A stretch of 64,000 nt of DNA, from NCBI RefSeq assembly GCF_964204865.1, contig NC_135255.1:22659135-22723134 (forward strand), written 5' to 3'. Numbering within the stretch: position 1 is the first letter of the stretch; each line of letters opens with the position of its first letter. This stretch comes from Styela clava. Taxonomy: Eukaryota; Chordata; Ascidiacea; Stolidobranchia; Styelidae. This document shows, one piece after another, positions 1,793 to 52,925 of this stretch. The translations under genes and the position numbers were made by a program. Below the pieces are notes generated by a model. The model saw nothing but the letters and a program-made list of their open reading frames with translations. It made no database searches and was not told the origin of the DNA.

Positions 1793-2028
1793 GGTACTCA
1801 TGTAGTATGTGAACCAAGATGGTGGACACCGGAACGTAGTATGTGTACCAGGTTAGGGTTAGGCCATAATTTCAGTTACAAGTACTACGGGAGTCACTTG
1901 GCTAGTCCCCGAACTCGTAATAGAACTAAAATAGGGAAAATAAGAATAAAATTATGTCTTAACCCCAACCTGGTACACATACTACGTTCCGGTGTCTGCC
2001 ATCTTGGTGCACATACTACGGGAGTGCC
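1793..2028. mobile_element. hAT-type MITE, long form (family A)
   Basis: A 236-bp palindromic element with long terminal inverted repeats. It is flanked by the exact 8-bp duplication CCTAAATA (1785-1792 and 2029-2036), the length produced by hAT transposases. The ends read GGTACTCATGTAGTATG and the inverted CATACTACGGGAGTGCC. The left arm contains CCAAGATGGTGGACACCGG and the right arm its inverted counterpart. There is no coding capacity. It is the most upstream of about 13 family members in this window. Confidence 0.85.
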
Positions 2029-2214
2029 CCTAAATATACATACAACTGAGAGATAGCATTTTGTATCGAAAATTTTATGAGGTTTCGTTCACAAATTAGC
2101 TCCGAGCCAGGCTTTTGACAAGCAGCCACATTACGCAACGTCTTGCTTTGTATTTATTTCCGGCCCTGCGTTGCATACCATATTTAGATGAGTCATGGAA
2201 TTTTTATTCCACAC

Positions 2215-2541
2215 CAGGGGTATGCAGCCATTAATACATGAGGGCTCGCTACAAAAATTTGGGTGAAACCGCGGGCCACACCTTTTTAACACAGGCTTTC
2301 TAGTAGTTCAAGCACAAAAATTTTGGTTATTGAGGGTCTGAAATGCGGTGTTTGCTTCGCACAAGCTAACTATTACTGCATTGTAACGTCATATACATAG
2401 ATAATAAATTGGACTCAGATATAGGCTTGGAAGCACTCGCACGTACCAGATTAAAACTAAATTAAAATCTCGTTTCGCGGGCCCTCAATTTTTTTGCTGA
2501 GGGCCGCATTTGAACCGCGGGCCGCAGGTTGCACACCCCTC
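2215..2541. mobile_element. hAT-like MITE relic
   Basis: It starts CAGGGGTATGCAGCC and ends GGTTGCACACCCCT, an imperfect terminal inverted repeat of the hAT type. Inside are repeated GCGGGCC / GGGCCGC boxes, as in several other elements here. No clear target duplication was found, so the borders are provisional. It lies just upstream of the first visible exon of the mucin-like gene. Confidence 0.5.
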
Positions 2542-2586
2542 ATCTAAATTTTCAACCTGCCACTAACCACTTCTTTATTTTCCTAG

Positions 2587-5500
2587 GAGCAACAGAGCAA
2601 CGAATCGGACGCCGAATCATTGATAAGCGATAAAAATAAAGCAGAAGACACGAAAGCTGGGGCAGCAGACGTCGAAATTGACGGTAAGATTCCAAGTTCT
2701 GTCGTTTTTTTCATCAACCTGTTTAAGCCTTCACTACAAATAACACACGGTTACGAGCTAACACTTATATATAACTCCCATTCTTGGGAGTGGGGGGATT
2801 GTTCAATTTCGGTATTGCCTACCAAAATTTTCCATGGGGCAAAATATCGAACCGGTTTTGAATTTTTTTTATATAAAAGACATGAACGCTGATTACAAAA
2901 GCAACAACTGCATTATTTGGTTCAATACCCCTCCCCTTCCCAAAATGTATACATATATACAATAAACGACATTAGCAATTGCATTCGGTGTTTGGATTCG
3001 CAACATAATCCGAGCAACGGGGTGTGCATGCTTCCACTCGTACGTAAATAGCTACTGTTTCATAAAAAGAAATCTTCCATGTTCTACAATGCCTACCGAA
3101 GCAGATTACACAGACGGCGCACGCGCCAAAACACACCAAGCTATTTAGTGAGGCCCTTGTCAAGAATTCTAACCCAACAGTTTATGTTTATAAAAGCGTC
3201 CTCTTTGACTTCAAATACATGTTTTTTACTGTTGCCGTTGTGTTAAATTGTTAAATTTTTCACTTCATTGTGTACATGGAAAAACGGATCTTTTGTGCGG
3301 CCCAGCTAGATGGGCGGCTAATGTTTCACATCTTTGGATTACATCATGAGTCAGATCGTGGGTTCGAATTCAAGATATTTGACCCAAATATACCCGGAAA
3401 TGCTGTTATTCTAACAAGAATATATCAGCATTTTCCAAGAAAGTAGTATATTTTTTCACCACACTAGATATACAAATTACAATAAATTAGGTAAAAGCAT
3501 TTGAGAGTGACGGGAACCGCGAGAAACTGATATTGGTTATCGAGCAGCGGTATCCATAAATAAGTAGACGCCTAGAATTACAGTTGGTAGACAGTAATTT
3601 ATGTTACTGCATAACCCCAAGGTGTAAAACGTGTACAATTACTAATTTCCAGTTCAATGTTTTGTGATATTTTTATCCACGAAGTCATATATTTTTAATT
3701 CATTTTAGCTGTTCCAGAAGTCGCGGTAACGGCGGGAAACGGGAAAAGGAATTCTGAAGACGTCGAGGGAGGACGTAAGTTACTTTTTCAAATTTTTCCT
3801 AAAACTTTTTAAAGTCATATTTGTGGAACTCTATATGTCACACCGGTGCGACCTATGTGAAGTGTCAAAACGTTTTTCACGATGCGTTATATGTTGCGAA
3901 AATATTATTAAAAACGCCAAGGGTGAAGGATACATACGACTCCGACACGATTAAAAAATTCAGACTCGCCAGAAAAACCGTTTGCAACCATTTTGGTTGA
4001 AAATTTCGACCCTGGTCAGCGCTTGGACCACGACACCAACACCAGCTAAAATCCGTTACCAACTCAACATTTATTGAAGCGACGGTAGTATTAATTAAAT
4101 CAACGCCATTAAGACACTTTTAAAATCACATTCGATATAGAGGCGCGTTGACGTTATTACGCCACCCTGGCAACGAAATCAAAATTGAACGATTCGGCAT
4201 TTATTTTGAATTTCGATTCCAACTCCGGAGTATTCAAAATCTAACCACTTCAAGATAATATGATATAACGGCAAAGATGAAGATTTTCACACAAATACAC
4301 CTGCAATTTCGGGGGAAGATATTATGCTGTTCTTAGTAATCAGTCCAATTCCAACTCGATATTTCTCTGAACGCGAACGTATATAAAAACAGAGACACGA
4401 GTTTGAGCATTACAATAACTATATTTTAACAGATAATCGCGTTGGCATTAATTACTAGAATACAAAATCAAACCATAAATATTAGCATTGTGAAAGGGAG
4501 CATGAGGTGTCCAAAACGAATGGAATATTCAAACCGATTCAAAACTCTTGGTTCTACTTCATTTAATAAAATACCATTTTGAGAAAAAAGTCTCACATCA
4601 AGGCCTTGGTTTCATTTCTGAAACAAGTGGGAAATGTAACATCAATAAAAGCACTGTTTATCACTCTTGTATTACTAACTTACAAGTCATTGAAATTACA
4701 TTAACTTATATGTGTTTGTAGTTGAACAGGACAATCATTAAAAATATATTTGACTCTCTATATTCATATCAAATTGGAATGTATTCGAAATTGTATATTA
4801 GGCACTTTTAGCCGATCCCCGGGTAGATCGTATATTTTCAATATATACAATATACATACATAAATATGGCCGAGTACATACACCCTCTCAACAGTTCAAA
4901 CAACGTACAATCAATGTATTTAACGTGAATTTCAACGACATTAATAACGCAAATACACGGTTGGAATTGCTTTGAAATTCACTTCAAATTTACGTTATTT
5001 TTAATTAAGAATGCGCGACACCTAAAACACATTTTTCACCTCGAGTGCTCGATAGGTAGATGGAAATAACAGGATGTCATTGATGCGTCATAAATGTCTC
5101 CATTGTGTTATCATAATACTGGCTTTTTGTTGGGTTTTTACAAAGGTAGCTGACAGCGGTTATATTGTGTAAAATCATTAAGACAGCAATTTATATGTTG
5201 TAGAACAGGGGGCTCCAACTCAAAACATGTCGCGGGCCATTTCTTTAAATTTATTAACCACGCAGTCCGCAAGAAATTAGGTACAACATATTCATTTACT
5301 TGTGCTGGATATTTGGTCTCGATGTTTGGCCTTATTTTGCGTTGGTTTGCTAGTCTTAGGACAACATGCAAATGCTCGTCCGTTAGTTGTGTGCGAAGGG
5401 CTGATTTACTAACTTTCATAGTTGAAAAAAAACTGCTCGCAAATATAAGAACTGCGAAACATCGCAGGTATGCGACGTGAATGTGCAATTAGCTTTGCAA

Positions 5501-12677: not shown

Positions 12678-12788
12678 GGACCTCCAGAAGTATGCGCACC
12701 AAGATGGCGCACAACCTGAATATGGTGTGTGTGTACCTTTCAGGATTCAGGTTGTACGATATCTTGGTGCGCATACTTCTGGAGCACC
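12678..12788. mobile_element. hAT-type MITE, short form (family C)
   Basis: A 111-bp element flanked by the exact 8-bp duplication AATCATTT (12670-12677 and 12789-12796). The arms are almost a perfect hairpin: GACCTCCAGAAGTATGCGC on the left and its inverted counterpart on the right, with CCAAGATGGCGCACAACCT in the left arm. Similar short forms lie at 36135-36234 and 41627-41724. Confidence 0.85.
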
Positions 12789-14190: not shown

Positions 14191-14399
14191 GGTACTCCCG
14201 TAGTATGTGTACCAGGTTACGCCATAATTTTATTCCGATTTTCCTTATTTTAGTTCTATTACGAGTTTGGGAACTGTCTGTGTTAGGCAAGTGAATATAC
14301 CCCCTTGCCCATAAACTTCCGTTCCTTTACACAACTTGAAGTAAAGTAGGCGAACAAAATAAGTTACCTCCATATTGGTACACATCCTTCTGGAGCGCC
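14191..14399. mobile_element. hAT-type MITE, medium form (family B)
   Basis: A 209-bp element. It starts GGTACTCCCGTAGTATGTG and ends CACATCCTTCTGGAGCGCC. The internal blocks CGAGTTNGGGAACTGTCTG and CCTTTACACAACTTGAAG are shared with the copies at 17724, 30774, 36698 and 52718. The target duplication is not clean here (GTATAAAC against GTACTTTG). Confidence 0.75.
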
Positions 14400-15200: not shown

Positions 15201-15438
15201 GGTACTCCCGTAGTATTTGAATCAATATGGCGGACACCAGAACATAGTATGTGTACTAGGTTAGGGTTAGGCCATAATTCCAGGTACAAATACTATACGG
15301 GAATCACTTGGCTAGTTCCAGAACACGTAATAGAACTAAAATAAGGAAAATTGGAATAAAATTATGGCCCAACCCTAACCTGGTACACATACTACATTCC
15401 GGTGTCCACCATCTTGGTTCACATACTTCGGGAGTACC
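15201..15438. mobile_element. hAT-type MITE, long form (family A)
   Basis: A 238-bp palindromic element flanked by the exact 8-bp duplication TGACAATG (15193-15200 and 15439-15446). The ends are GGTACTCCCGTAG and CTTCGGGAGTACC. The right arm keeps the inverted CCACCATCTTGG block; the left arm has the mutated form AATATGGCGGACACC. Confidence 0.87.
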
Positions 15439-17723: not shown

Positions 17724-17935
17724 GGTACTCCCGTAATATGTGTACGAGGTTAGGGCAGGCCATAATTTTATTCCGATGTTCCCTATTTTGGTTCTGTTAC
17801 GAGTTCGGGGACTGTCTGAGTTAGCCAAGTGAATATCCCCCTGTCCATAGGTTTTAGTTCCTTTACACAACTTAATGTAAAACAGGCGAACTAAATTAGT
17901 TACCGCCATATTGGTACACATACTTCAGGAGCGAC
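17724..17935. mobile_element. hAT-type MITE, medium form (family B)
   Basis: A 212-bp element flanked by the exact 8-bp duplication ATTGATTA (17716-17723 and 17936-17943). It starts GGTACTCCCGTAATATGTG and ends ACACATACTTCAGGAGCGAC. This duplication links the medium form to the same hAT-type insertion mechanism as the long form. Confidence 0.87.
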
Positions 17936-17943
17936 ATTGATTA

Positions 17944-28600: not shown

Positions 28601-31196
28601 AACATTGATATTGACCTAAAAAAGTATCCAGCCCAAAAGTTGAAATGTTGCTTTATTATTTCAGAATGCATTATGTGATCATAATGGCTCTGTTCACCGT
28701 GACAAACTCTACGTGAGCGGCGGATTCAGTGACGGACATTTCAGTGACGCTATGTTGTGTTATAATCCCAAGCATGATATCTGGGAGCGTCGATCACCAA
28801 TGCAGTATGCAAGAGGATGGCATAGCCAAGTTACTCTGAAGGATAAGTATGTATTTTTTTATGATATTTTTTTGCGTGTTTAAGGATTATTACCTATTGA
28901 TTTTAATCGGTAAGTATGTTGATTTGTCTGTCTGTCTGTCTGTTAGATGCACGCGATATCTCACGAAAGCTAGATTGATTCTGCTCCAGATTTTGCATGT
29001 GCATTCATCATATGTCGTACCAGAAGCCTATTGATTTTGGATGATTTATGTCGTATAATTAGCGAGTTATAAATTAATTAGTGATGGGACACAAGGTGTC
29101 ACTATGGAGTAAGAGCGCTGTTTTGGGGGATCCCCTAACTTTCGACCGATAAGTCTTCGGTCTCTGACCGATATTCTCGTTTTCTTCTTGGGGTGTTTTG
29201 TAATAATAGTAAATTGTATCTCTTTCAAGAAATAGTAGGAGTAACTGTAAGCTTTGATCATAGTCTGAATAAAGTGGTAAGAATCCCAATTTAATAAAGA
29301 CCAAGAGGTTTGCTGGACTCGTAGAGGGGTTAGCATTGATTATCTAGGGCAGGGGTGGGCGACCCCTGGCACGCGTGCCGAACTTGGCATGTGAGCCCAT
29401 TTACTCGGCACGCGAGCGAGGCTTCAGAAACGAAATCATTTTTCTTCAGATAAAAAGTTTCAGAGCTCGGAATTAGCTGTTGAAATTCTGCGTCCGTTTA
29501 ATCAAAATTGTTTGTTAACAATCTGTTATTTATTTGAATTCTTTTTGTCCATTCATGACATAGGGCTTCAAAGAAATATATTATGAAGTCACAACGGAGT
29601 CGGCTTTCGACTATTTTGGTTGGCACACGGAAGAATTTTGTCATTAAATTTAGTCGATTTTGGCATGCGAGTCGGAAAAGGTTGCCCACCCCTGATCTAG
29701 GGCCCCTGTCCATGGTGTGGCGCACCGTTAGGAATACTCTTGTCACTGCAACCCTGATTACCCTGAGTAGGTTCCCATGCAGGGTTAATTATGCGTGAAA
29801 GGTCTCGGCCAATCCGAGAGAACTGAGAAAATTTGAAATAATAAGTAGCTGCTTGTGTAAAACTGGCTGTTTGTTCAGAGCCCAAGGTGTGGAAATATTT
29901 CATGAAAAAATCATTTTTTTTCAGATAATTGAATATTCCACATATTGTATTTATTATAAATGTTTCATTGTTATTTTAAATGCTGTGTATTTTTTTCCCC
30001 TGATAATTTAGTGCCGCACAGACAAAAAGTTTGGGAACCGCTTGTCTAGCTCAGGGCTACTCAACTATTTTCATCAATGTTCGTTTACATTCAAATGGCC
30101 GCTTGTTGTTTACGGTTTCCTCCACCATAAAGTCCATGCACCTGATACAATTACCTGGTTTAACTAATTCTGACATGGTAACCGGATGAGAGGCCGTGGT
30201 TCGCCATATGAATCCTCTTTCCCCAGGAAAAATATGAAATTCCAATCCAATCAAATCTTAAAAATATCCTGAATAGAGTATGTTACCTCTATATTTTTAC
30301 ACTTAAAATTCTCAAAAATGTATTTTCTTTTTCACAGGATTTATGTGATTGGTGGGAACACAGGAATTAACAAACGAGTGGATGTTCTGGACACTGAAGT
30401 CTACAGCCCGGATTTCGATCAGTGGACGACTGTTACACCTATTTCTATGGGACAGAGTGAAGCTGGAGCTACTGTGGTATGTGAAAAATTATTGTTTGGT
30501 GTGTGGTAACTAAATTTTTCATACTTAAGAAATTTTAGGAATAAATAAAAACAAGAGACTTTGAACGAAAAATAAAACTTTCAACCACTGGAAATTTAAA
30601 AGAAATTGGTCCATTAGAAAAGCGTTTTTTTCATAACAAAGAAAAATACTAGCAAAATCAACAACAACAAAATAACAACGATTCATAGGTAGGACCACTT
30701 TGTGTCCAATAATTCATTTTGAACTTTGCCATGGTAGAAATAATAGTAACACAGAAAAGAAATACACAATACAGGGCGCACCAGAAGTGTGTGTACCAAT
30801 ATGAAGGTAACTAATTTTGTTCGCCTACTGTACATCAAGTTGTGTAAAGGGACTGAAACCTATGGACAGGGGGTATATTCACTTGGATAACACAGACAGT
30901 CCCTAAACTCATAATAGAACTAAAATAAGGAAAATCAGAATAAAATTATACCCTAACCTGGTACACATACTACGGGAGTATTCAGATCTTCATTCTCAAA
31001 GTATTTATACTATCTACAGCTTGACAGCAAGATATATGTTGTGGGCGGATACTGTTGGGCTGCTCGACGATGCATAAAGGTCATTCAGACCTATGACCCT
31101 GACAAGGAAGAATGGGAACGTGTCGGAAATCTTCCTCGTGGACTGGCTGGTTTGAGACTATGTACTTTGACCTTGCCACATCACCTTGTTCGATAA
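19680..31196 (+). CDS. KLHL9/KLHL13-like BTB-Kelch Cullin-3 adaptor
   Basis: Twelve exons join in phase: 19680-19753, 22515-22735, 22924-23096, 23599-23738, 24258-24404, 25218-25341, 25977-26112, 27124-27280, 28063-28255, 28665-28846, 30338-30476, 31020-31196 (TAA). The product is 620 residues, the usual size for KLHL9/13. BTB is at about 52-152 (LLCDVTLIAG, FPVHRALLAS), BACK at about 157-260, six Kelch blades at about 300-612 (LYAVGG, LYVSGG, IYVIGG, IYVVGG). IRFPLMPPRDL and VDFMRT closely resemble KLHL9/13. In the family the BTB domain binds Cullin-3 and the Kelch propeller presents substrates for ubiquitination (KLHL9/13: Aurora B). The start exon was chosen because its donor phase (2) fits and no other exon was found; it is the least certain exon. 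The introns are rich in transposons. Confidence 0.92.
19754..22514. other. first intron of the KLHL gene, no gene seen
   Basis: A 2.76-kb intron. It contains a copy of the GGTTATCGAGCAGCG repeat (about 20111-20150) and a short local duplication, ACGGTGTACC, at about 21313-21340. Two stretches at about 21960 and 22040 share AGGATACTAATC/ACAGATATACTC-type wording, but nothing bounded. No convincing frame or RNA gene. Confidence 0.4.
23894..24089. mobile_element. mariner-type MITE
   Basis: A 196-bp element. It starts GGGTGTCCATAAA and ends with the inverted TTTATGGACACCCTG, with TA immediately outside both ends. It lies in the KLHL intron between exons 4 and 5. The interior is non-coding and matches 39215-39405 and the fragments around exon 8. 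Confidence 0.75.
24766..25130. repeat. intronic tandem repeat, 145-150-bp unit
   Basis: The word AGTACCCATTGGTGGG recurs at about 24766, 24911 and 25061. Between the copies is an identical block with GGATAGGATAGGATTTATA and GGGGGTGAAGAAATCC. The units are almost identical except that a G run lengthens from GGGCGGG to about 12-13 and 11 G. The block itself derives from the tail region of the SINE at 38560-38912. It lies in the KLHL intron between exons 5 and 6. Confidence 0.8.
27015..27108. mobile_element. mariner-type MITE, left-half fragment
   Basis: Matches the first half of the MITE at 23894-24089 (GAATTTATCGATACCA, GGCCCTCACAGATGTATTAA). It ends about 16 bp before the acceptor of KLHL exon 8. 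The outer terminal repeat is missing. Confidence 0.6.
27487..27633. mobile_element. mariner-type MITE, right-half fragment
   Basis: Matches the second half of the same MITE and ends GACTTTATGGACGCCCTG, next to TA. It lies in the intron just downstream of exon 8, so the exon sits between a left-half and a right-half fragment. The fragments overlap in content by about 30 bp, so they are two truncated copies and not one split element. Confidence 0.6.
27924..27942 (+). repeat. duplicate of KLHL exon 9 splice acceptor
   Basis: Nineteen bases, the T run, CAG and the first 11 bases of exon 9 (CAG|ATATGATCCTC), are repeated here about 131 bp upstream of the real acceptor at 28061-28062. After that the sequence diverges and in-frame coding similarity ends. 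It could act as a decoy acceptor. Confidence 0.6.
28499..28538 (+). repeat. duplicate of the start of KLHL exon 10
   Basis: About 40 bases match the first bases of exon 10 (28665 onward) with one mismatch; the shared core includes GATCATAATGGCTCTGTTC and CACCGTGACAAA. The copy sits about 168 bp upstream in the intron. Its acceptor is ruined (CACATT instead of CAGAAT), so it is a dead exon fragment. Confidence 0.75.
28906..29181 (+). mobile_element. Helentron-like element (HINE type), diverged copy
   Basis: It begins with CGGTAAGTATGTTG and a short GTCT run, then the core GCACGCGATATCTCACGAAA, and ends CCGATATTCTCG. The 5' palindrome is lost. It shares a subfamily feature (a GATGGGACAC insert) with the copy at 53637-53876. 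It lies in the KLHL intron between exons 10 and 11. Confidence 0.6.
29350..29694. mobile_element. hAT MITE, CAGGGGTGGGC ends
   Basis: A 345-bp element with inverted ends CAGGGGTGGGCGACC / GGTTGCCCACCCCTG. It is flanked by the exact 8-bp duplication ATCTAGGG (29342-29349 and 29695-29702). Subterminal GGCACGCG words occur inside both ends. Intronic in the KLHL gene. Confidence 0.88.
30112..30250 (+). repeat. SINE body fragment
   Basis: Matches the body of the SINE at 38560-38912: CCACCATAAAGTCCATGC, then GACATGGTAACCGGATGAG, then GTGGTTCGCCATATG. The tRNA-like head is missing, so this is a 5'-truncated copy. Confidence 0.55.
30774..30980. mobile_element. hAT-type MITE, medium form (family B)
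   Basis: In inverted orientation relative to 14191-14399. It starts GGGCGCACCAGAAGTGTGTG and ends CACATACTACGGGAGTA. It lies in the last intron of the KLHL gene, about 40 bp upstream of the final exon. The flanks show only a diverged target duplication (AATACAG-like against TATTCAG). Confidence 0.75.
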
Positions 31197-34388: not shown

Positions 34389-37300
34389 CTACTGTTCATC
34401 TTGTGTCGCTGGCTTTAATGGGGAGGATTTTCCATGTTTTTGTCGAATGCTTTCAATGGTGGAGACAGGATACTGGTCTGCGTTTGCTTCTAAAACTTTC
34501 AACACGTATTCGTCGCAATTTGTGATTAGAAATCGGTGTTTGAAGACTGAAAATATAAAAATTGTTGAGTTGAATTTTCACTGTTTTTGCAAGATTTTTG
34601 ATATTTTCCAACTGTTTTTGGTGTTATTTCAAAATAAGGAGGTGGAGGACCAGGATAAGCCAGTGAAATTGATACAATCAAGTTTAAAGCAAAGCTGCGA
34701 GTCCTCAACTAGAAATGTAAAAGTAGTAACCAGCCTAGACATAGTCTAGAAGTGAGCAATTAGTGACTTTGCGATGTACGATTATTTTATCACAATAATC
34801 ATAAGATTATTCAAAATTTCATATAGTTTTGCAATGCGCTTTAGAAATACACAGGAAGGCTATTGCCCTTTATCTGACCTGTTTTCTTGCGACAATGTAA
34901 TTTATAGATATTAGCATATCTACAGTATGTCCAAAAAATTTCGCCCGATTTTATAGAAATACCAATCCAAAATTTCAACCGGTTCATGGTAATTACAATC
35001 ATAAGTTTAAATAAATTTCATTGTACAATAAGAACTATCAATAAACAAAGATAAATAAATTTTTAATTGTTATTTCCTTAAAATTGGGCAAAATATTTTA
35101 GACACCCGGGATATATATAAAATACACTTACTGTGGACAACACTTCCAATCGCGAAGTCACCTGGGCCATAGAACTCAGGATTCTCAATGTCAGATCCTG
35201 GTTTTGAGATTCGAGTCGCTTCAAGGAATTTTCCGCCGATGATTCCAGAGTTTCGTTGGGGAGGTTCGAAAATACTGATCATGTCGTCAGAGAGACGATA
35301 GGAGAGAATGAAACGACGATCTTTGTCATCTGGACGGACTGAATCCTAAAAAATTAAAATAGTTTTAAAAAAAGAGAAGTCAAGTTATTTAAACAAAATG
35401 AATCGACTCAAAATCAATTAGACTCAATTAGTGGTTTTTTCTCAAGGTTCCATGACACCTTAGGGCCAGTACAGTACCGGCCAGTACTATGCCAGTACAG
35501 TACCGGCGCTCCCTGCAAATTTCTTTCCAAATCCGAGAGTTTGAATCATTGTGTATATATTGTTCAAAGACATAACCAAATACCTAATAGGTTTGCCATT
35601 ATCATTTTGTTTTGCAAGTATCACGGTCGTTTTAATTTCATAGTTTATACAATTTTACCAACAGAAGACAATTAAACTATTGCACAGGCGTTCTGCGAAG
35701 TATAAATTGATTTCTAAAGGAGAGGAAAGGCTGTAGAATGAGGGCCGTGGAGTTGGGAAATATAGGATAGGATTTACATATTTACCACGGCTTTTCGTCC
35801 GGTTACCAGTCCATGTCGGGTATGGGATTAGTTATTTGTTTTCGGAAGCATGGCCTTAATGGTGAAGGAAGCCGTAACCGACCAGCGGTTACTTGAACTA
35901 CCCTACGGCGGCGAGGAGTCCAGCAATCCTCTCGCACATAACCATCCCCGCATGGGATTCGAAATATGCACAATTCGATTGTGGCCCAAACTCTGGGTTT
36001 CACATACAGTTTGCATTAAATTGAGTAGACGAAGCCAAACTAAAAAATTGCGGTCCTATGAAAATAGTTGCTCCTTACACATCAGTGACTAATTACCGGC
36101 ACTTCTACAGAGCCTCATTTAGAGTAAAAACGCTGGACCTCCAGAAGTATGTAAACCAAGATGGTGCACAACCTGAACATAGTATGTTTACCAGGTTAGG
36201 GTTCAAAGTTGTGCACCAATTACTTCGGGAGCGCCAAAACACCATAGAAAAATCCAAATCTTACCAATCTAGCTTCGTATCTAAGAATCTTGTGATCATT
36301 TTCCAACATCTTGATGAAATCTTTCTTAGGAGGTTGCGGAACAAGACTCAGACAATTCTGTTTGGAATCTTCCAAAGATCCGAAACCATTGTACGGGGGA
36401 AGTTCCTGTCGAAAAATAAGAAAGATCGATTTGTTGACACAAATAAAATGGGCAATGTTCCCAATTTGCCGCTGCATTGTGTGTCAATTATTGTTGGTTC
36501 ATTAATTATTAAAAATTAGGACTAATTGTAGTGTTTCCCCATTGTCAAAAAATAAGAGAGATCATTTGTTGACACAAATTATGCCATGTTCACGACCCTT
36601 CACCGCATTCCGTCTCAATCATTGTTAGTTCATTAATTATTCACAGGTAAGATGTGTTAGTCTTTTTAGTGTTTCCCGATTTTAATCAACTCTTTCGAGC
36701 GCCGCTCCAGAAGTATGTGTACCAATATAGAGGTAACTAATTTTGTTCACCTACTTTACATCAAGTTGTGCAAAGGGGCTGAATCCTATGGGCAGGGGAG
36801 TATATTCACTTAGCTAACACAGACAGTCCCCTAACTCGAAACAGAAGTAAAATAAGAAAAATCGGAATGAAAATCGGCTTAGCCCCAACCTGGTACACAC
36901 ACAATGGGAGTACCCTCTTGGCACTGGCCCTTCGCATAATCATACGTTCCGTTCGGATTACCTAGTACCTGCCATATTATCTCAAAAGGGAATGTCGTTT
37001 AGTAAACTTGCGCCAATAAATCATTCTAAGACGCAGATCTGAAATTTTCATGAATAAGTTGATCTCACCATCTTCGAAAGGTCCTTTGCTCTTCCTTTGA
37101 CAGGGATTGGAGTGAAGTCCTGAATGCCGCTCATTGTACGGTAATAGCTAAAATGTAAAAGATTCAGACAGCAATAATACAGGTGTGCCTGATATTTTGA
37201 CTCTGCGACACCAATAAAATTGAGTCACAACTGAAACAAATTTTTTTAACCACTTTTTGCTTGCTCAAAAAATATGTGTTCATTCGTGCACTTGGGTGGG

Positions 37301-40300
37301 TGTATAGGACACCACCACAAGGGGTTTTTGAGGGTGGATCCCCCCCTCCCCTTTGATACGTATAAAAAAGCATTTTTCGGAAACACTTTACCCCCCTCAA
37401 GAATCTGGAAAGCCCATGTATTAGGCATTAGGCAACCTTATCCCATTAGGTAGACAATATACGGGGCTCCCGAAGTATGCGAACCAAGATGGCGGACATC
37501 GGAATGTAATATGTGTACTAGGTTAGGGTTAGGCCATAATTTTAGGTATAAATACTACAGGAGGCTCTTGGCTAGTCTTCGAACTGATAATAGGACTAAA
37601 ATAAGGAAAATTGGAAAAAAATTATCGTCTAACCCTAACCTGTTACCCATGTTACGTTCCGATGTCCGCCATCTTGGTTCGCATACTTCGGGAGCACCCA
37701 ATATACTGTTATTCACATAACCAATCCTATCACCTCCTCCCAATATAAAAGCCTTTTTACTTACTTTTTCGTGAAGTTATCGCAATCATAGATGAGGAAT
37801 CTTCTTCCATAAATGAACAACGTCTTTCCAATTCCAAAGTCTGACGGATTGAACCATTGCTTTACTTCATGGTCCGATAGTTCCATAACTACCATTGGGA
37901 AGGACGCTGAAAATAATTAGTTACGGTTGAATAAGTATGACCTTTGGCTTTATGTTTTGTTTTATAAAATTTGACCTTTGACTCTTAGTCATGCTTCAGC
38001 GATACTGTAAGATAATATGCCCATTGAATTGAATATCAGTTTCCTCTTTGCTATCAAGTTACAATGAAATCAGTAGGCGTGAGGAATAATAAAATACAGA
38101 GATCAAAATGCACTTCATATTACTGAATAGACGAGAATATTGAGAGTTAGGATAAGGATATGAATGGGATTTTCTTATTTACCTGGGGGAGAGGAAAGCC
38201 AATAGGACAGCTTATATATATATTAGAAAACACAGTCTCTCACCGAGTTACTAAATCAAATTGTGCATGGGGATACTCAAGATAGTCGAGTTGTTAATTA
38301 TTCCATGTGTATGAAATACATTGGTGGAGGAAGCCGTAACTAAGGGAGTTCCAAACTTTTGAGCCCGCGACCGTTTCCAATATATTAAATTTTTCCGCCA
38401 CCCCTCGTTAAGTCTGCATTGTTATGCAAGCGCGGTGCTTCTCTGATCCCATGTATTCTCTCAAAATCGTAAGATTTATGTTTTGCACTAGTTTTTATAA
38501 TTGTGTTTCGAATCAAAAGCCAAAAAAAGTACAATAGATACAGTACTTTGTGTGAAGTTGATATACTCTTTGCGGCCCCCAAAATTCGTTGTGCGTCTCC
38601 GCAAGGGCCACCAGTTAAAGAAGCTCTGTTCGCAGGTTCGAATCCCATGCGGAGAGAGTTACAGTATGTGCAAGAGTATTGCTGGACTCCTCGCCGCCGT
38701 TGGGCGGTTTACGTAATCGTAACCGCTGGTCGGTTACGGCTTCCCCCACCATCAAGTCCATGCTTCCGAAAAAAAATAACTGACTAACTAATCCCATACC
38801 CGACATGGACTGGTAACCGGACATGAGGCTGTGGTATGCCATATGCTTGAAGGGCCTTATCGGCTTTCCTCTCCCTCGGGATAAATATGTCACTCTTATC
38901 CTTTCCTAATATATATAATAAAGGGTGACATGTGTGTATTCCTTTATCTACTTACATTCAACGTCATATCTATCAATAGGGAGTCTTTGTCTCCTCAGCA
39001 ACACAGGGAAAGGATCTCGTCCATCGTTTGGTTCATGAACTTCACGGATTTCGATTGTGTCATCCACCAAGAAATAATGAAGTACGAATGGTCGCATCTC
39101 ACCAAACATGGCATCACGATCGTCCCACACGCAATAGAAGCGAAGAACCTGGATGAGAGGAAATGACAATAATAAGAAAACAGCATTTTACTATCCCGAT
39201 TTTTGAGAAGTATAGGGTGTCCATGAAGTCTTAAATTTTTTTAAAATTGCAAAGGGAATCATCGATACCCTCACAAATGTATTAAATCAAGTAAAAATAC
39301 TTAACAATTACTGATTAAGAACAGCAAACCTGAATAAGATATATTGAGAACTGACTTTAAAAAATAAAATTGAAATTGTAAAGGGACTACTTTATGAACA
39401 CCCTGTATATGACACATTTGTTGTAAAGATAACTACTATATATTTAAAAACTTCAAATTAAAAAAAAACAGATAGTTTTCTGAAACATAGCCTTCGTCCA
39501 ACACGCAATCAGAGCGAAGAACCTGACCCGGAGGCCAGTGTGTTGTGTAATGCAGTCATTTTCAACCTTTTTCGCGGGGCGGAACCACAATGGAACATTC
39601 AAAAACTGAAATGGGCCAAGTGCGGCCCGCGGGCCAAATCTGACCCGTTGAGTAATTCAATCTGGCCCGCCTGATGCTGCCATAACCAACCTAAAACCGA
39701 GTTTTGATGTTTTAGCTTAAAAATAGCTCATGGAATCTGTTGAGATTGCGATTAAATTTAGTTTTGGCACGAGGCTTATTGTTTTCCCCCTTTTTTGTAA
39801 CTCTGTAAATATTGGAATTTAGTCTCGCGCAACCTCTAATGATAATCTGTAAATATTGTTCAGAACTTGATTAATTAACCTAATCACATGGCCTGCAGGC
39901 AATGTTCCCTCTAATTTTTTGTAGTATGTGTGCGCAGAAATTTTGGTGTGTGCGCACTTTTTTGGAAATGACTAATATTTGTGTAAAAATCAATGAAGAA
40001 ATTTTGGCGTTCTAACTGGGTAATAAGTGGGCCAACAACAAACTTTCTCAACCTGACAACCGAGAACATTGTTACATTACATCGAAATACGTCTGTGCGC
40101 AGTAAATCTATGCGTGTGCGCAGCCTCTGGAAGCTGTGTGCGCGCGTACACTTTAGAGGGAACACTGCCTGCAGGTCTAGATGAGCAAAATGTTTGACCC
40201 CTGGTCTAAAAACCTTACCCAGTTTTACCCAGCCTACCCCAGTTTTAAGAGACTTGCCGATGCCTTGAACATTACTGTAGCCACTTGGGGCCTAATAAAT

Positions 40301-43300
40301 TATAAACCCTACCAAAACTTGAAAACGAGTTAAAATCAGAAGCATTTTTTCCAACCACAAAAACATTGACATCTATTACGCCACAATAATTAAATGAAGA
40401 AATGATCCTGTAAAATAACAATACTAATTCCTTTATCCTTGCAGAAGTCAATATCTAAGAATGAAAAAAAAAAAAACCTTATAACCTTAGCAACCAACAT
40501 ATTCCTATACCCTGTCTTTCTACCTTAATTAATTATAATTACTCATACTTATAAAGTTACTGATAGATTTAAATACTTATTGCAATCTGGACTATAATTT
40601 GGCAATAATAGGCTCTAGTTTGGGCAATGAAGTGGTCTAGCCCACCTCTTCATGCACCCAATTCTGGCAACTTTGGTTGGGCATTTTGGCATTTGACTCC
40701 ATCTATAATCAGCTTGACAATATATTTTTTTATAAAAGTTTATCTTTACTGTTCACTCCCATTTATAAAATTGATCAATTTGGCAGTGGCAATCATAAAT
40801 TTATTAATATGGTGTGGCAAGTAACTTTTATTTATTTATTTTTTATTAACTACCATTATGTAATTTTTCATGTTCCCTTTACTTAATAACTTCTATATGG
40901 TTGTGTGTGTGGGTGCGTGTGAGCGTGTGTGAAATATTTCAATTATTTTAGGTGAGTGAACACGTACCACATCTTCTTGGCAAAACCTTCCATCTTGTAT
41001 ACATTCTGTACGTTTTAAACCTTATCTAAGGTTTTCTTCGCTCTCCTGATTTCATAATCAGTTTTTATTTATTTATTTTTACCATTCATTTTATTGTTTT
41101 GCTGATTATGGAGTCGAAATAAACTTATACTTATTTAATAAAATAATCCATAGCTCCAACTCTACCTTTCTGTCTAATTTCAAAAATTTCTTCAATTTAT
41201 CGAAGTCAGAGGGAGTGGTGTATGAACGCAGTGGCTGTCTTCGAGATTGTGTGTACGGATCACTTGGTATCGACTCTGGGAAACTCAGAATCAAACCTTC
41301 ACTTTCCATGAAGTCCTGGAACAAAAAATATGATTACTCAGAAATTCATAATGTCAGATAAAATAGGATTTACATATTTATCCCACAGAAGAGGAGAGTC
41401 CTGTTCACAATTTTTGGCAAATTGCCCTGGACAAATTTTGACAAAAAGCTTGGTGTACAAAAGTATTTTTTATGGATATGTTGAGGATCCTTAGCCTGTT
41501 GCTCGTTTAATTTCAATATTAACTTTTTTTATATTTTTACTTCAGCTCAGACGACTTTGAAATACAACTCCGACTTCCATGCCAATAAAAATGCCAAAAA
41601 TCAGGCTCCACTGTAATGCCATTTGGAGATACTCCTGAAGTATGTGCACCAAGATGTCGCATAACCTGGTACACAACGTGAGTTCAGGTAGTGCGCCATT
41701 TTGGTGCGCATTCTTCAGGAGGCCCCATTTGAATCTTGACAACAAAGTGAATAGTGCTCATTTGGTGTTTAATTGTATCAGAGCCTTAAGAATCGAATAC
41801 CTTTTCTACAACTCCACAGTGTTTCAAAAAGTAGAAACTGGGACCAAACCAAATATTCCAAGCTTATGTTATTTTGAATTGAGTAAACATCCAACTCACA
41901 GCTGTAAACTTGTCACAGTTTGTCAGTCTGAATACTTTTCCATAGAACGTCACGTTCATCCCAAGATTCAAATCCTTCCAATGCCAGTTGTCTCCTTGGT
42001 CGTTCTTTGGGAGTCGTTGTCTCTTGATCAACTTGCCCTAAAATTGAAGAATATTTTTAGATTGAAAAAAAAAAAGATTTTCATAAATTTGTCCTGAATA
42101 AAGTTACAGGCGAGTGAACGGCCACTGACAGAAAAGCAGCCAGGATTTTTCTAACAGAGGGTTAGGGTGGAATTAACGCAGTGTGTATAAACAGCCAGGC
42201 CGAGGAGCTTTCCTTTCATTCAAATGGAGTTAAAAGCGAAAATCCTGTTGGACAAATACCAGCGTTGCATGTAGCCTGCCTCCCTTTGTCAGACATTGTT
42301 CGAACAATTTTTGCCCATTCTATATCAAATATATGGAAGCTACTAACATCGACCATTACCCTGTTCCGCAATAACCAAATCTCATTGTTTCATAAATGAA
42401 ATAGAGGTATCGTTCACTGATAAAAAGGAGCTACTATCGGTATATCAATAGTGAGACTGAAAAAAAATTCTTGTTCGAAAAATTATTATTATTTTTGATT
42501 TTACAACTTTGCGCAGAACAAGACTCTGGCCAAGCAGCCACTGAAACAGAAGGAGATACCTTTATTATTGGTTTCACCACTTTATGATGGTGAGGAGTCC
42601 AGCAAGCCAGCAATCATCTTGCACATTATAATACCCAAGACAAACTGTGCAAGCGTGTTCTCAATGCTCACCACGATGTGCCAATCATTTAAACAAAGTA
42701 AATATATTCACATTTCGTTACAAACCTGAGGCATTCCTGAGTTCTCAACAGCCGGTTCAACGACAGCTATACTGTCATCTTCCAGATAATAGTAGATATC
42801 GACTGGACGAACTCGGTAAAACTCAGACGCACTTTCGTGAACTGTTTCTTTGAAGTACGCTTTGTACTTTAGAACCTGGATGAAAAAAGGTTATAACTGT
42901 GGATTGAAATAGTTAAACAGTTGACTGGTTGAAAAATTAGATTATAAGGTCAAGTATTCAGTAATTTATTTTTTCACCAATGCTGGAAAACATTTTGTTC
43001 ATATACATTGTAGAATTCCAGAGAGCGGGGAGACGCACAAAGACCAATAACGATTATCGAGCAGCAACACCCCAGATGGGAGAACAAGACATGAAAAAAA
43101 CTAAATCAATGATATTAAACCTAAGGTAAATGTAAATTATATAGAACAAAATATTCACACGAGGCACTCGTGGCACTCCGGTAAATCCAGACCATTTTAA
43201 ACTGGTATTCAAACTGCAAATGCCAAAATACCTTTTTGTCAAAAGCGAGATGAGCTGGTACGAATGTTTCAGGAGGAGCTTGTTTCGCTTGTCCATACGT

Positions 43301-44708
43301 CAGTGTCGGCATCTTCTTGGCCAATTCATCAAGTTCTGCTTCGGATAGTTGGTTGTGAACCAGCCTTTCACCTGGGATGAGATTTGGTTCATTGAATAAT
43401 AAATTGTATTGAATCAATGATTCTTAAATGCTCCACAATTTTTTGAGGGGGCGTGGGTTCGATTAAAAATAAAAATATTCGGTATATTTGATTTTGACTG
43501 CCCTATTTGTTTTAAAAACTTTGATTAATTTCATTGGTGCTCTCGAAGTATGCAAACCAAGATGGCGGACATCGGAACGTAACATGGGTAACAAGTTAGG
43601 GTTAGGCGATAATTTTTTCCAATTTTCCTTATTTTAGTCCTATTATCAGTTCGAAGACTAGCCAAGAGCCTCCCGTAGTATTTATACCTAAAATATGGCC
43701 TAACCCTAACCTAGTACACATATTACATTCCGATGTCCGCCATCTTGGTTCGCATACTTCGGGAGCCCCATTTCATTATATGTTCCATCCACATATTTTC
43801 AACGTGTTTTTTTAATAAAACATACTTTTGCCTTACTAACTGTTATTTGTAGCTTATTGTTAGCTGGGTATTTTTGAGGTGGGGTGCGAGACTTGACGTA
43901 TTCTAAAAGGGGGCGCGCGGGTTGAAAAGTTTGAAAACTACTGTATTGAATATTCAACCCCAAAAATTACCCTGGGGCCTACGGAAGTGCAAGTCGCACA
44001 GGTTGCAGTGACCTCCAGCCTTGTATACATCTCAAACCTACCTCCTTGCTACAGGTGTAATAAAAAGGGCGAGCCGTGGTGAACTGGAAATATTCTGGTT
44101 ATTGCAAAAAATATCTCCTAACACATCAGCTGATGCTAGTAAAGAGCTTAGTTCGAAGCGAAAAAAAAGTAAAAAAGGTCATATAAAAATATTTAAAACA
44201 ATAAATCTGTGCAACAAAAGCTACCTCCAAGTCCAACTGTTGGTCTCTGTTGGATTGCGTATCCATTCTTGAATCCGAGCGTATTGGAAACATGGAATCG
44301 AGTTTTCTGGGAAAAGAAAAGAAGAGTAATAAAAATCCAAATAGTAACATACAAAGTATTCTACACCAGGGTTCTGAAACTTATATTTAGCGCTTTTAAA
44401 CAGAAATTTGCTCAATAATAAAAGCAAAGTTACAGAGACAAGCACTGAAATGCAGATAGCTGTTGAGTTATTAATCATTATAGCACAGAATTCTGAGACA
44501 CTAAAAACCGATTGACTCAAAAATACTAGAAGTAGGTCAAGTCAATCTTTTCAAGAAAACGGCCATGAGATAGCAAACTTCACATATCTGAATTTCTTGG
44601 GAAAAAACTCACACAAAATGTACTATTTTAAGCCAATTAAATTACCGTGGGATCTTTGAATGTATTCCCAGGAAGAAAAGGCAGCCCGTCAGCTCTGGTT
44701 GTTGTCAT
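34389..44708 (-). CDS. EFHC1: EFHC1-like axonemal DM10-domain protein, no EF-hand
   Basis: Twelve exons, read from the 5' end on the minus strand: 44646-44708, 44225-44306, 43232-43371, 42726-42875, 41900-42037, 41166-41315, 38956-39148, 37765-37906, 37069-37147, 36265-36405, 35132-35345, 34389-34546. All phases agree and give 549 residues. Three DM10 domains lie at about 94-199, 239-355 and 412-515. Hallmarks include LPFLPG near the start, [23 protein letters not shown]-like [26 protein letters not shown] and [16 protein letters not shown]. The family comprises inner-lumen proteins of ciliary doublet microtubules; human EFHC1 is about 640 residues with a C-terminal EF-hand. Here the stop comes about 35 residues after DM10-3, so the EF-hand region is absent unless an alternative 3' exon exists. 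Many introns carry MITEs. Confidence 0.95.
35764..35972 (-). repeat. tRNA-derived SINE copy
   Basis: Reverse orientation of the SINE at 38560-38912. From the left it reads GGATAGGATTTACATATTTA (tail), CCAGTCCATGTCGGGTATGG, GCCGTAACCGACCAGCGGTT, GGCGGCGAGGAGTCCAGCA and CATGGGATTCGAA (remains of the B-box). Located in the intron between EFHC1 exons 10 and 11. Confidence 0.65.
36135..36234. mobile_element. hAT-type MITE, short form (family C)
   Basis: A 100-bp hairpin-like element. It starts GGACCTCCAGAAGTATG and ends TTACTTCGGGAGCGCC, with CCAAGATGGTGCACAACCT in the left arm. Flanks AAAACGCT and AAAACACC look like a decayed 8-bp duplication. It begins about 30 bp beyond the donor of EFHC1 exon 10. 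Confidence 0.75.
36408..36660. repeat. two-unit tandem repeat next to EFHC1 exon 10
   Basis: The words TGTCNAAAAATAAG, GATTTGTTGACACAAAT-like, ATGTTC, and GTTNGTTCATTAATTATT occur twice, about 135 bp apart (36408 and 36543). The first unit starts directly at the acceptor of exon 10, so it includes the polypyrimidine side of a functional splice site. The second unit runs into the dispersed repeat also found at 16790-16985. Confidence 0.65.
36580..37010 (+). repeat. dispersed repeat, interrupted by a MITE
   Basis: This is the same repeat as 16790-16985. The left part runs to ATCAACTCTTT (about 36695) and resumes with CTCTTGGCACTGGCCC at about 36914, ending near TCGTTTAGTAAACTT. The 215-bp interruption is the MITE at 36698-36913. 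Confidence 0.65.
36698..36913. mobile_element. hAT-type MITE, medium form (family B), nested
   Basis: Inverted relative to 14191-14399. It starts GCGCCGCTCCAGAAGTATG and ends ACACACAATGGGAGTACC. It interrupts the dispersed repeat of 36580-37010, whose intact paralogue at 16790-16985 reads straight through. CTCTT is present on both sides as the visible part of the target duplication. Confidence 0.85.
37463..37698. mobile_element. hAT-type MITE, long form (family A)
   Basis: A 236-bp palindromic element flanked by the exact 8-bp duplication CAATATAC (37455-37462 and 37699-37706). The left end is GGGGCTCCCGAAGTATGCG and the left arm contains CCAAGATGGCGGACATCGG, with a near-perfect inverted copy in the right arm. 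It lies in the EFHC1 intron, about 66 bp from the donor of exon 8. Confidence 0.9.
38560..38912 (+). repeat. tRNA-derived SINE, fullest copy
   Basis: The head carries a perfect B-box word, GGTTCGAATCCC (38634-38645). It is followed by GCTGGACTCCTCGCCGCCG, AACCGCTGGTCGGTTACGG, CATACCCGACATGGACTGG and a tail ending ACTCTTATCCTTTCC. Related copies end in ATCCT/AGGAT runs, suggesting a pentanucleotide tail. The copy at 58562-58885 preserves a better A-box region. Inferred to be an RNA polymerase III retroposon. It lies in the intron between EFHC1 exons 7 and 8. Confidence 0.7.
39215..39405. mobile_element. mariner-type MITE
   Basis: Starts GGGTGTCCATGAAGTC and ends TTTATGAACACCCTG, with TA outside both ends. 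The interior matches 23894-24089. It lies in the intron upstream of EFHC1 exon 7. Confidence 0.7.
39612..40205. mobile_element. hAT-like repeat, GGCCCGC family (outer, split)
   Basis: Starts near GGGCCAAGTGCGGCCCGCG and ends near GTTTGACCCCTGG, with the interior shared with 11790-12112. It is interrupted by a separate MITE at 39900-40167. Removing that insertion leaves about 325 bp, the same size as the other copy. Confidence 0.6.
39900..40167. mobile_element. hAT MITE, CAGTGTTCCCTCTAA ends, nested
   Basis: A 268-bp element with inverted ends CAATGTTCCCTCTAA / TTTAGAGGGAACACTG. It is flanked by the exact 8-bp duplication CCTGCAGG (39892-39899 and 40168-40175). Subterminal TGTGTGCGCA words are present at both ends. 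It is inserted into the older hAT-like repeat 39612-40205. Confidence 0.9.
41627..41724. mobile_element. hAT-type MITE, short form (family C)
   Basis: A 98-bp element flanked by CCATTTGG (41619-41626) and CCATTTGA (41725-41732), a 7/8 target duplication. It starts AGATACTCCTGAAGTATG and ends CATTCTTCAGGAGGCC. It lies in the EFHC1 intron between exons 5 and 6. Confidence 0.8.
43536..43769. mobile_element. hAT-type MITE, long form (family A)
   Basis: A 234-bp palindromic element flanked by the exact 8-bp duplication ATTTCATT (43528-43535 and 43770-43777). The ends are GGTGCTCTCGAAGTATGC and GCATACTTCGGGAGCCCC, with CCAAGATGGCGGACATCGG in the left arm. It lies in the intron between EFHC1 exons 2 and 3. 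Confidence 0.9.
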
Positions 44709-48120: not shown

Positions 48121-48124
48121 TTAA

Positions 48125-48620
48125 TATTCCAATATTTTTATTCCAAGTTACAAGTCTGAGCGCCCAAAAGGCAGTCCGCTTTCCTTATGAACAAGAAATA
48201 CTTTTAACTGTCACGCGCCATTGCATAATCGAGGATCGCGTTGCCAAACCTTATATTAAATAAACAAATGTAACCGTATTTGTGTGTAATGATACGCGTA
48301 CATCGTCTGCTTTTTTCTTCTACACAGCTCATTATTTGTGTTTTTAAAAATGAGAACTAAAAGTTAAATTTATTGAATTTTACTTTGAGGGTTCAATTGC
48401 TAACGAAAAATTTAAGAGCAGGTGTAGCTTTTAAAATTTATAGAAAGCAATATAATTGAAAATATGGCAACACTAATTTTATAGGTTTCATCAATTGCGC
48501 TACTTTATCGTAAGGCTCTAATTATATGGCTTGTTATATTGTTTTATGATTTAACGTGTTAATTATTGCGCTTTATCTCTTTCTCAGATGCTATTTTATT
48601 GCCCTAATACCATGTAGAGT
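48125..48620. other. 5' flank of BORCS5
   Basis: AT-rich sequence between the piggyBac-type MITE and the BORCS5 start. It must hold the BORCS5 promoter or 5' untranslated region. An AG after a T/C-rich run (TTTCTCAG at 48582-48589, about 30 bp before the ATG) is a possible splice acceptor, either for a 5' exon or for a spliced leader. Confidence 0.35.
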
Positions 48621-50106: not shown

Positions 50107-50194
50107 ATATTTACTATTTGTCAACTTGAATGCAGTAAATAATATAATATCATCAATTCTAGTTTAAAAACTGGAACTTTTTATTGTAAATAAT
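50107..50194 (+). promoter_or_regulatory. BORCS5-SLC30A9 intercistronic spacer
   Basis: Only 88 bp lie between the BORCS5 stop and the SLC30A9 ATG. It contains AAATAAATA-type sequence right after the stop and a possible acceptor, CAATTCTAG (about 50153-50161), some 33 bp before the ATG. This would suit a trans-splice or internal processing site, but no such site is proven by the sequence. Confidence 0.35.
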
Positions 50195-51853: not shown

Positions 51854-51897
51854 TTTTTGCTTAATTTGACCATTTTTTGATAATTTAAAGTAATTTT

Positions 51898-52133
51898 GGT
51901 GCTCCCGAAGTATGCGAACCAAGATGGCGGACATCGGAACGTAACATGGGTAACAGGTTTGGGTCAGGCGATAATTTTTTTCCAATTTTCCTTATTTTAG
52001 TCATATTATCAGTTCGAAGACTAGCCAAGAGCCTCCCGTAGTATTTATAGCTAAAATTATAGCCTAACCCTAACCTAGTACACGTATTACATTCCGATGT
52101 CCGCCATCTTGGTTCGCATACTTCGGGAGCCCC
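51898..52133. mobile_element. hAT-type MITE, long form (family A)
   Basis: A 236-bp palindromic element flanked by the exact 8-bp duplication GTAATTTT (51890-51897 and 52134-52141). The ends are GGTGCTCCCGAAGTATGCG and CTTCGGGAGCCCC. It is very close in sequence to the inverse of 37463-37698. It starts 45 bp beyond the SLC30A9 stop. Confidence 0.92.
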
Positions 52134-52717
52134 GTAATTTTATTGTATTTTTAGTGCAATTAATGGCATTCTGTTAGCAGACTACTGGCATGCTGAATAT
52201 ATTGTTTGGGCTCAAATCTGTTTGAAAAATGAATGCCGACATGAAAAAGACGTTCAAAAAGACGTTCTATATTAAAAGTGTATTTGTATTCGAATAAAAT
52301 TATTTAATATTCGATCTTGGCAAGTTTAGGCTTGGTATGTATTGCCCTATGTTTGTCGTTTGTATAAATTATCAGTCTGTGACCCAGGATATGGATTCTA
52401 ACTGATATGCTGTGGTCCACCATATGGGTTACCATTCACTTTCAGTTGCCCTTGGTATTCGAGTGTTTGTCCATACTTCTCTCCAGAAATGAGTCTTCTT
52501 CATTTCTGATTGAGAGCATGTGACATCACTCAGAGTACCTATAAAAATGCCTCGCAAGCTAAGAAAAATTGAAGTAAAGTTACTGTAAAATGTTGTTGAA
52601 TTTCTTCATATTTTTACGCTCTTAACCCAAAACCGGAGCAATAAATGTCCAAACATGTTTCATTTTTTGTGACTCTTTTATTGAAATATTGTTTTCACCA
52701 GTAGAACAGCAGTTTTG

Positions 52718-52925
52718 GGGATACTCTCCTTGTGTGTGTACCAGGTTAGGGTATAATTTCATTCCTATTTTCCCCATTTTAATTCCATTACGAGTTCGGG
52801 TACTGTCTGTGTTAGCCAAGTGAATATACCCCTGCCCATAGGTCTACGTCCCTTTACACAACTTGAAGTAATGTCGGCTAACAAAATTAGTTACCTCCAC
52901 ATTGGTACACACACTTCTGGGAGCG
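52718..52925. mobile_element. hAT-type MITE, medium form (family B)
   Basis: A 208-bp element flanked by CAGTTTTG (52710-52717) and CTGTTTTG (52926-52933), a 7/8 target duplication. It starts GGGATACTCTCCTTGTG and ends CACACTTCTGGGAGCG. The internal ACTGTCTGTGTTAGCCAAGTG block is shared with the other medium copies. Confidence 0.8.

Follow-up and report, generated by a model that had tools for sequence, protein, structure and literature searches.

Merlin-type MITEs of Styela clava and the large virus-like retroelements from which they probably derive

Introduction

Which transposase mobilised a set of short inverted-repeat elements in a 64,000-nucleotide stretch of the Styela clava genome, and from what parent did they arise? 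The stretch, referred to as the window throughout, comprises positions 22,659,135 to 22,723,134 of contig NC_135255.1 (RefSeq assembly GCF_964204865.1) and contains 13 miniature inverted-repeat transposable elements (MITEs) with paired ends, which fall into three size classes. A preliminary description had assigned them to hAT, taking an 8-bp duplication as the mark of that group. We present evidence that the 13 elements are likely non-autonomous MITEs of the Merlin type, which arose when large virus-like retroelements with Merlin ends, resident in the same genome, lost their interior.

Results

MITE ends, size classes and flanks

A pattern scan of the window with GGTGCTCCCGAAGTATG, allowing up to 3 mismatches, returned 19 end-like sites compared with 0.05 expected. 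An end profile built from the 26 MITE ends of the window recovers all 26, which are its own input, and finds no 14th end pair there; it bears out the preliminary account of 13 related elements with common ends in three size classes. GG starts 20 of the 26 ends, the remainder being 1–2 bases off at that position. Four boundaries were refined (30774 to 30775, 36698 to 36701, 41627 to 41628 and 52718 to 52720), after which exact 8-bp duplications flank 8 of the 13 elements, with less complete matches at the other five (Table 1). The seven exact duplications listed earlier are all retained, and the element at 52720–52927 joins them; the flanks at 41628 match at 7/8. In all 8 exact cases, 8 bp is the longest exact duplication length, and the chance of an 8/8 flank match is 6.25e-5 per site.

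The long class measures 234–238 bp (n = 5), the medium class 208–214 bp (n = 5) and the short class 98–111 bp (n = 3). The three forms had been said to have the same termini and different insides; the termini are indeed common, but long and medium MITEs also have 75–83 bp of interior in common, at 77–86% identity. The long MITEs fold end to end over ~80 bp and contain internal copies of the end motif. None of the window MITEs encodes a transposase itself, and the elements display the traits of MITEs, being short, non-coding and present in high copy number, with inverted ends and duplications. We agree with the earlier view that they form a non-autonomous group whose three forms were probably moved by one transposase.

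Two further motifs were observed within the elements. The inverted ends, for example 37463–37500, contain CCAAGATGGCGGAC, which resembles the YY1 binding motif, and the long form contains the telomere-like TTAGGGTTAGG; together these represent possible regulatory cargo.

A search of the 376.6-Mb assembly (379 contigs) with the first long MITE (1793) brought up 4,581 first-look candidates, and scoring was limited to the best 40. Both ends are present in 32 of these 40 copies. Exact 8-bp duplications flank 10 of the 32 two-ended copies, including the 1793 copy of the window, and 7/8 matches flank 8 more. Among the 40 scored copies, the nearest to the 1793 element is 93% identical. The proposed recent burst applies only to three long copies, which are 2–4% apart; other within-class distances in the window are 11.5–30%, and the data do not support one single recent burst. 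A 30-base end pattern with up to 3 mismatches occurs at 3,638 + 3,457 = 7,095 sites genome-wide, compared with 0 sites for the reversed pattern used as control. The first MITE has no match in a phage collection.

Large elements related to the MITEs

The genome contains 12 matches to the Merlin transposase domain PF12762, and the MITE end profile lies just upstream of two of these (E 4.8e-9 and 1.7e-11), the C19 and C8 copies of a large element termed family 1. The C19 copy (10,440,547–10,456,298) is 15.75 kb long and flanked by the exact 8-bp duplication GATCCAAA. Its left end equals the long-B MITEs at 35/36 bp and its right end the short MITE 12678 at 23/24 bp, while the C8 copy matches one end of each of the three long-B MITEs at 36/36 bp. 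The C8 and C19 copies are 87–97% identical in their main aligned blocks. The large frames of family 1 described here lie on one strand, and encode a Merlin transposase, an accessory protein (open reading frame 2, ORF2) and envelope-like, gag-like and pol proteins (Table 1). The pol has the motifs DTGS (protease) and YIDD, with RVT_1, RNase H and a C-terminal Tpt1/KptA domain over their Pfam cut-offs.

The gene set recurs in two further families, on one strand each. Six of the 8 family-2 loci examined have both ends and exact 8-bp duplications; five of these units measure 14,700–14,705 bp and one 13,946 bp. The C2 and C6 copies of family 2 are 99.4–99.9% identical in aligned blocks spanning the unit. 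For five of these six (all but C6:2.9 Mb) the fetched sequence covered the ends and transposase region, the pol search placing a pol inside each. Family 3 is represented by a 12.0-kb element (C9:5,432,731–5,444,742, duplication AATATTTT), and a 10.0-kb element on C1 (duplication GGATATTT), termed 3-like, is known from its ends alone; both duplications were found by a scan of GG..CC pairs that gave one candidate each. The large elements thus span 10.0–15.75 kb, with GG-starting inverted ends and 8-bp duplications.

Remnants of these elements were sought in the window by tblastn with 15 proteins, using 20 simulated windows (first-order Markov) as control, for which the best score was 29.3 bits. 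Three medium MITEs contain a match to the C-terminal, Tpt1 part of the family-1 pol above this value (Table 1); the strongest, at 30847–30972, aligns KGLKPMDRGYIHLDN with KGLKPMARGYIHLTN. A family-3 gag match at 50879–51055 equals the control score (29.3 bits). Since three medium MITEs hold a Tpt1 fragment of pol, the MITEs probably arose from the large hybrid elements by internal deletion.

Superfamily assignment

Merlin elements are described as having ends that begin with GG, inverted repeats of 24–462 bp and duplications of 8–9 bp (PMC8101967). An 8-bp duplication is hence not diagnostic of hAT, because Merlin also makes duplications of 8–9 bp. The MITEs and large elements agree with this description in duplication length, and in their GG ends, which the large elements of families 1–3 and the 3-like element show at both ends, GG having been part of the search for the family-3 and 3-like ends. 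The inverted repeats comprise 24 bp with 3 mismatches in family 1 and the ~80 bp fold in the long MITEs. PF12762 (DDE_Tnp_IS1595) is over cut-off in the transposases of families 1–3. Merlin transposases are defined without the Zn_Tnp_IS1595 finger; that of family 1 gives a Zn_ribbon_IS1595 match below cut-off (14.9 vs 25.4 bits). A wider Merlin transposase search gave 38 matches, of which 30 loci were fetched; among these the end profile is confined to the two large elements, a short MITE in L076 and a weak end at L079.

The L076 site is an observation in its own right: position arithmetic puts a complete short MITE (L076:1387–1497, C9 ~11,236,868–11,236,978) within an older Merlin transposase gene, where it separates the residues that match ~203 and 206.

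An origin of the MITEs as hAT elements, suggested by their 8-bp duplications, is scarcely credible given these results. Besides the GG starts, the Hermes/hAT target pattern nTnnnnAn (PMC10368747) fits 0 of 8 exact window duplications and 1 of 10 exact genome-wide ones, the inverted repeats are longer than the 5–27 bp given for hAT (PMC2874221), the MITE ends are carried by Merlin genes, and medium MITEs contain a pol remnant. The hAT assignment was rejected on the ends, the duplication pattern, the repeat length and the Merlin genes, the transposase searches having covered Merlin alone. A Mutator-like element (MULE) family with 8–9 bp duplications and long inverted repeats containing internal repeats was rejected likewise, and has an equally negligible probability in our estimate. 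In Aedes, MULEs do make duplications of 8–9 bp and their inverted repeats are mostly long (PMC5225508), and the long MITEs do carry internal copies of the end motif, but no 9-bp duplication is seen in the 8 exact window cases or, with fixed boundaries, in the 10 genome-wide ones, and the MITE ends match Merlin genes.

Conservation and signals of the large-element genes

Pairwise identities among families 1–3 are 44–52% for the transposase, 36–38% for the envelope-like protein, 46–57% for pol and 29–47% for gag where aligned. Between families 1 and 2, pol is 57% identical compared with 44% for the transposase. RVT_1 is detected with E values of 2.6e-14, 4.1e-16 and 1.7e-17 in families 1, 2 and 3, and RNase H likewise. 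In all three families pol lies in the -1 frame relative to gag, with overlaps of 118, 31 and 43 nt, and two of the three have an in-phase slippery heptamer at this position: GGGAAAC in family 1 and, in family 2, TTTAAAC with a stable hairpin after it. Pfam scans of the pol of families 1–3 gave no integrase (rve) match, small unassigned ORFs lying outside the scans. Direct repeats of the long terminal repeat (LTR) type were not found inside the three families, save one 101-bp tandem in family 1.

The reverse transcriptase (RT) of all three families is fused to Tpt1/KptA, an RNA 2'-phosphotransferase (family 1 L055:5971–9237, aa 917–1078); we know of no other retroelement with such a fusion. Compared with solved structures, the RT profile scores 85.8 bits with the 'Enzymatic polyprotein' 8r0s, presumably that of cauliflower mosaic virus, followed by 4ol8 (69.2), which we take to be Ty3, and Ty3 7q5b (67.0). 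All three envelope-like proteins have an RxKR furin-type site, a strong C-terminal hydrophobic peak and 13–15 NxS/T sites, and two of the three also have an N-terminal signal-like peak. Viral contigs scanned with pol alone, a pol alignment and an envelope alignment yielded no relatives. Upstream of gag, each family has a 29-bp run with TGG, which does not vary between families 2 and 3 and has a single mismatch in family 1. This run could be a primer-binding site; in family 1, no 11/12 match was found to 14 tRNA-complementary primer-site motifs.

The accessory proteins show weak kinship (16–21%). Those of families 2 and 3 (L087:1407–2858, L091:5458–6465) match PWP3A-B_C, a PWWP-factor domain, and a chromatin function is possible. 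An ORF-poor stretch of family 1 (L055:200–540) is 88% identical to one of family 2 (L087:6660–6994), far above the coding similarity; a conserved RNA element and a shared insertion are candidate readings.

A genome search with pol gave 3,042 first-look candidates, and because 42 of them were scored, the locus counts are lower bounds. By our own grouping there are at least 21 pol loci at ≥39% identity, with more distant RTs (26–28%) forming a separate set. A Merlin transposase lies upstream, on the same strand and within ~15 kb, at 12 of the 21, and at 9 of the 10 loci with a long stop-free pol. One locus (C2:5180512–5192282) has an open pol of 740 aa and a fragment of a Merlin transposase placed on the other side than in the other families, possibly as a differently permuted or rearranged copy.

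Table 1. Features of the window and of the large elements (position 1 is the first nucleotide of the window; L and C labels denote loci and contigs of the genome)
Feature	Position	Strand	Evidence
Long MITE subtype A, 236 bp	1793..2028	+	duplication CCTAAATA at 1785-1792 and 2029-2036, exact 8/8; end profile
Short MITE, 111 bp	12678..12788	.	duplication AATCATTT, exact 8/8
Medium MITE, 209 bp	14191..14399	-	end profile; duplication not clear (3/8)
Pol C-terminal (Tpt1) remnant in medium MITE	14219..14308	-	family-1 (L055) pol aa 1030-1067, 33.5 bits
Long MITE subtype A, 238 bp	15201..15438	+	duplication TGACAATG, exact 8/8
Medium MITE, 212 bp	17724..17935	-	duplication ATTGATTA, exact 8/8
Pol C-terminal (Tpt1) remnant in medium MITE	17760..17870	-	family-1 pol aa 1022-1066, 35.4 bits
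Medium MITE, 208 bp	30775..30982	+	end profile; duplication not clear (3/8)
Pol C-terminal (Tpt1) remnant in medium MITE	30847..30972	+	family-1 pol aa 1024-1075, 38.9 bits, E 4.45e-5
Short MITE, 101 bp	36135..36235	.	flank match 6/8
Medium MITE, 214 bp	36701..36914	+	flank match 3/8
Long MITE subtype B, 236 bp	37463..37698	+	duplication CAATATAC; first 36 bp equal left end of large C8 Merlin element (L054)
Short MITE, 98 bp	41628..41725	.	flank match 7/8, CATTTGGA / CATTTGAA
Long MITE subtype B, 234 bp	43536..43769	-	duplication ATTTCATT, exact 8/8
Long MITE subtype B, 236 bp	51898..52133	-	duplication GTAATTTT, exact 8/8
Medium MITE, 208 bp	52720..52927	-	duplication GTTTTGGG, exact 8/8 once ends refined
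Family-1 Merlin transposase, 319 aa			PF12762 over Pfam cut-off
Family-1 ORF2 (accessory), 278 aa			without Pfam match
Family-1 envelope-like protein, 841 aa
Family-1 gag-like protein, 875 aa			contains CYLCKAPGHLSKNC; Pfam zinc knuckle below cut-off
Family-1 pol, 1,089 aa			protease-RT-RNase H-Tpt1
Family-2 order			transposase 319, ORF2 484, envelope-like 809, gag 964, pol 1,021 aa
Family-2 copy	C6:2.9 Mb		duplication TATAATAC, exact
Five more family-2 copies			exact duplications GGACTTCC, CCGTACGG, CCGGTATT, CATGTGCT, TACAAATC
29-31-bp motif upstream of gag	L055:2161-2191 (family 1), L087:8513-8541 (family 2), L091:6951-6981 (family 3)

Other features of the window

Another dispersed repeat family, likely a different mobile element, has copies 89–99% identical, in inverted orientation, at 16107–16450 and 49147–49490, 28914–29092 and 53729–53856. 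Local duplications of 150–300 bp blocks (92–99% identity) occupy 60682–63762 and 47443–55700. Proteins resembling DNAAF11, SLC30A9 and GET1 are each encoded by one uninterrupted frame (45621–46973, -; 50168–51853, +; 56184–56705, -), and may be retrocopies or genes of an intron-poor host.

Discussion

On the chromosome, the large elements read end-transposase-accessory-env-(conserved motif)-gag-pol-end, except that in family 3 accessory and env change places. Once the ends are closed, the order becomes gag-pol-transposase-env, that of a retrovirus with the transposase at the place of integrase. The cycle that we infer resembles that of pararetroviruses, a Merlin transposase taking the place of integrase. 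The transposase would excise the element and rejoin it at new sites; excised copies would circularise to give gag-pol-transposase-env, RNA from the circle would be packaged and reverse transcribed by the RT, and the transposase would re-insert the new DNA. The envelope-like protein would permit spread from cell to cell, and the MITEs would be mobilised alongside by the same transposase. The transposon route is supported by the ends and duplications; gene content, frameshift signals and conservation point to the RNA route. On balance we lean towards a hitherto undescribed lineage of viruses or virus-like elements that would be enveloped and reverse-transcribing, have a circularly permuted retrovirus genome (gag-pro-RT-RNase H-Tpt1 / ends / transposase-accessory-env), lack LTRs and integrase, enter the chromosome by means of a Merlin transposase and shed thousands of MITEs.

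A number of observations weigh against this picture or the MITE origin tied to it. The short MITEs show ends alone, and of the pol matches seen in five MITEs, two (52720 at 26.6 bits and 15201 at 25.4) fall below the control of 29.3. The weak 19-bp end at L079 belongs to a Merlin locus that is distant and decayed. In the C8 copy of family 1, the transposase and env frames are broken and homology ends before gag-pol. GC differs between parts of family 1. In family 2, the full C2:23.36 Mb copy (14,706 bp) is without a duplication, the right end of the C8:1.7 Mb copy was not found in the 2.1 kb fetched, and the transposase frame of the C6:2.9 Mb copy is broken. Family 3 has its accessory ORF after env, not before, and no standard slippery heptamer at its gag-pol overlap. 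In the gags scanned, those of families 1 and 2, the zinc knuckle stays under the Pfam cut-off, and the envelope-like protein has no convincing Pfam or solved-structure match. At 8 of the 21 pol loci there is no upstream same-strand transposase match, all 8 having in-frame stops, and at 1 of the 21 the transposase is on the other side. As to the cycle itself, neither circular DNA nor reverse transcription nor particles were observed.

Could the large elements instead be DNA transposons with captured retroviral genes, which move by cut-and-paste only and whose RT is idle in spread? Transposon-type ends with 8-bp duplications and the LTRs not found would both suit this explanation, which we consider unlikely, as gag, RT, RNase H and envelope-like frames are open and alignable despite a transposase identity of 44–52%, frameshift signals are retained in two of three families, and pol is more conserved than the transposase between families 1 and 2. 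Nor do the data favour an LTR retrovirus-like element nested inside a Merlin transposon, to which we assign a very low probability. Such an insertion might account for the point at which family-1 homology stops on C8 and the variation of GC along family 1, but the same gene set and order are found in three families (save the family-3 accessory ORF), six family-2 copies measure 14,700–14,706 bp, env lies upstream of gag, neither LTRs nor an integrase match were found, and 9/10 long stop-free pol loci have the Merlin transposase upstream. The nested element was rejected because of the shared gene set, the lack of LTRs and the constant unit length. As for the MITEs, it is improbable that they stem from a simple, unseen Merlin transposon that shares their ends and has the large element only as a cousin. 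The long and short MITEs match family-1 DNA over the terminal ~24–51 bp only, as this would have it. Against it stand the Tpt1 fragment in three medium MITEs, the 75–83 bp common to long and medium MITEs, and the end profile, which among 30 of 38 loci finds nothing beyond the two large elements, the L076 short MITE and the weak L079 end.

How do the proposed virus-like elements compare with known systems? Known Merlin elements are small and contain essentially one transposase gene, whereas the large elements carry gag, protease, RT-RNase H-Tpt1 and an envelope-like gene within 10–15.75 kb. They resemble Merlin in their GG ends, 8-bp duplications and DDE_Tnp_IS1595 transposase of ~320 aa (PMC8101967). 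With Caulimoviridae they share the closest solved RT-RNase H structure, the lack of an integrase match and a CCHC motif in gag. They differ in having a transposase, inverted ends, chromosomal copies with duplications and an envelope-like protein, none of which, to our knowledge, is found in caulimoviruses. Like Retroviridae and Metaviridae, they have gag-pro-RT-RNase H and an env-like gene, a retroviral order as a circle and a pol in the -1 frame; unlike them, they have no LTRs, no integrase match and the ends of a DNA transposon. Teratorn, a comparable transposon-virus hybrid (PMC10175614), offers another parallel. Its transposase and virus type are different; it reportedly has herpesvirus genes and is not known to have an RT. 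Troyka is likewise an unusual virus-like retroelement of invertebrates, but is described as an LTR element with 3-bp duplications (PMC12440569). A search of open-access literature by titles and abstract starts, with subscription papers and preprints outside its scope, found no Merlin element with an RT or envelope; the MITE end sequences were not found in open-access literature either.

If correct, the proposed lineage would bridge DNA transposons and retroelements in one transposing unit. A retrovirus-like genome could then dispense with LTRs and integrase and rely instead on inverted ends and a transposase of bacterial type (IS1016-related). The model also accounts in concrete terms for the origin of a MITE family, some copies of which keep a fragment of pol, and suggests that integrase-free, enveloped pararetrovirus-like agents may exist.

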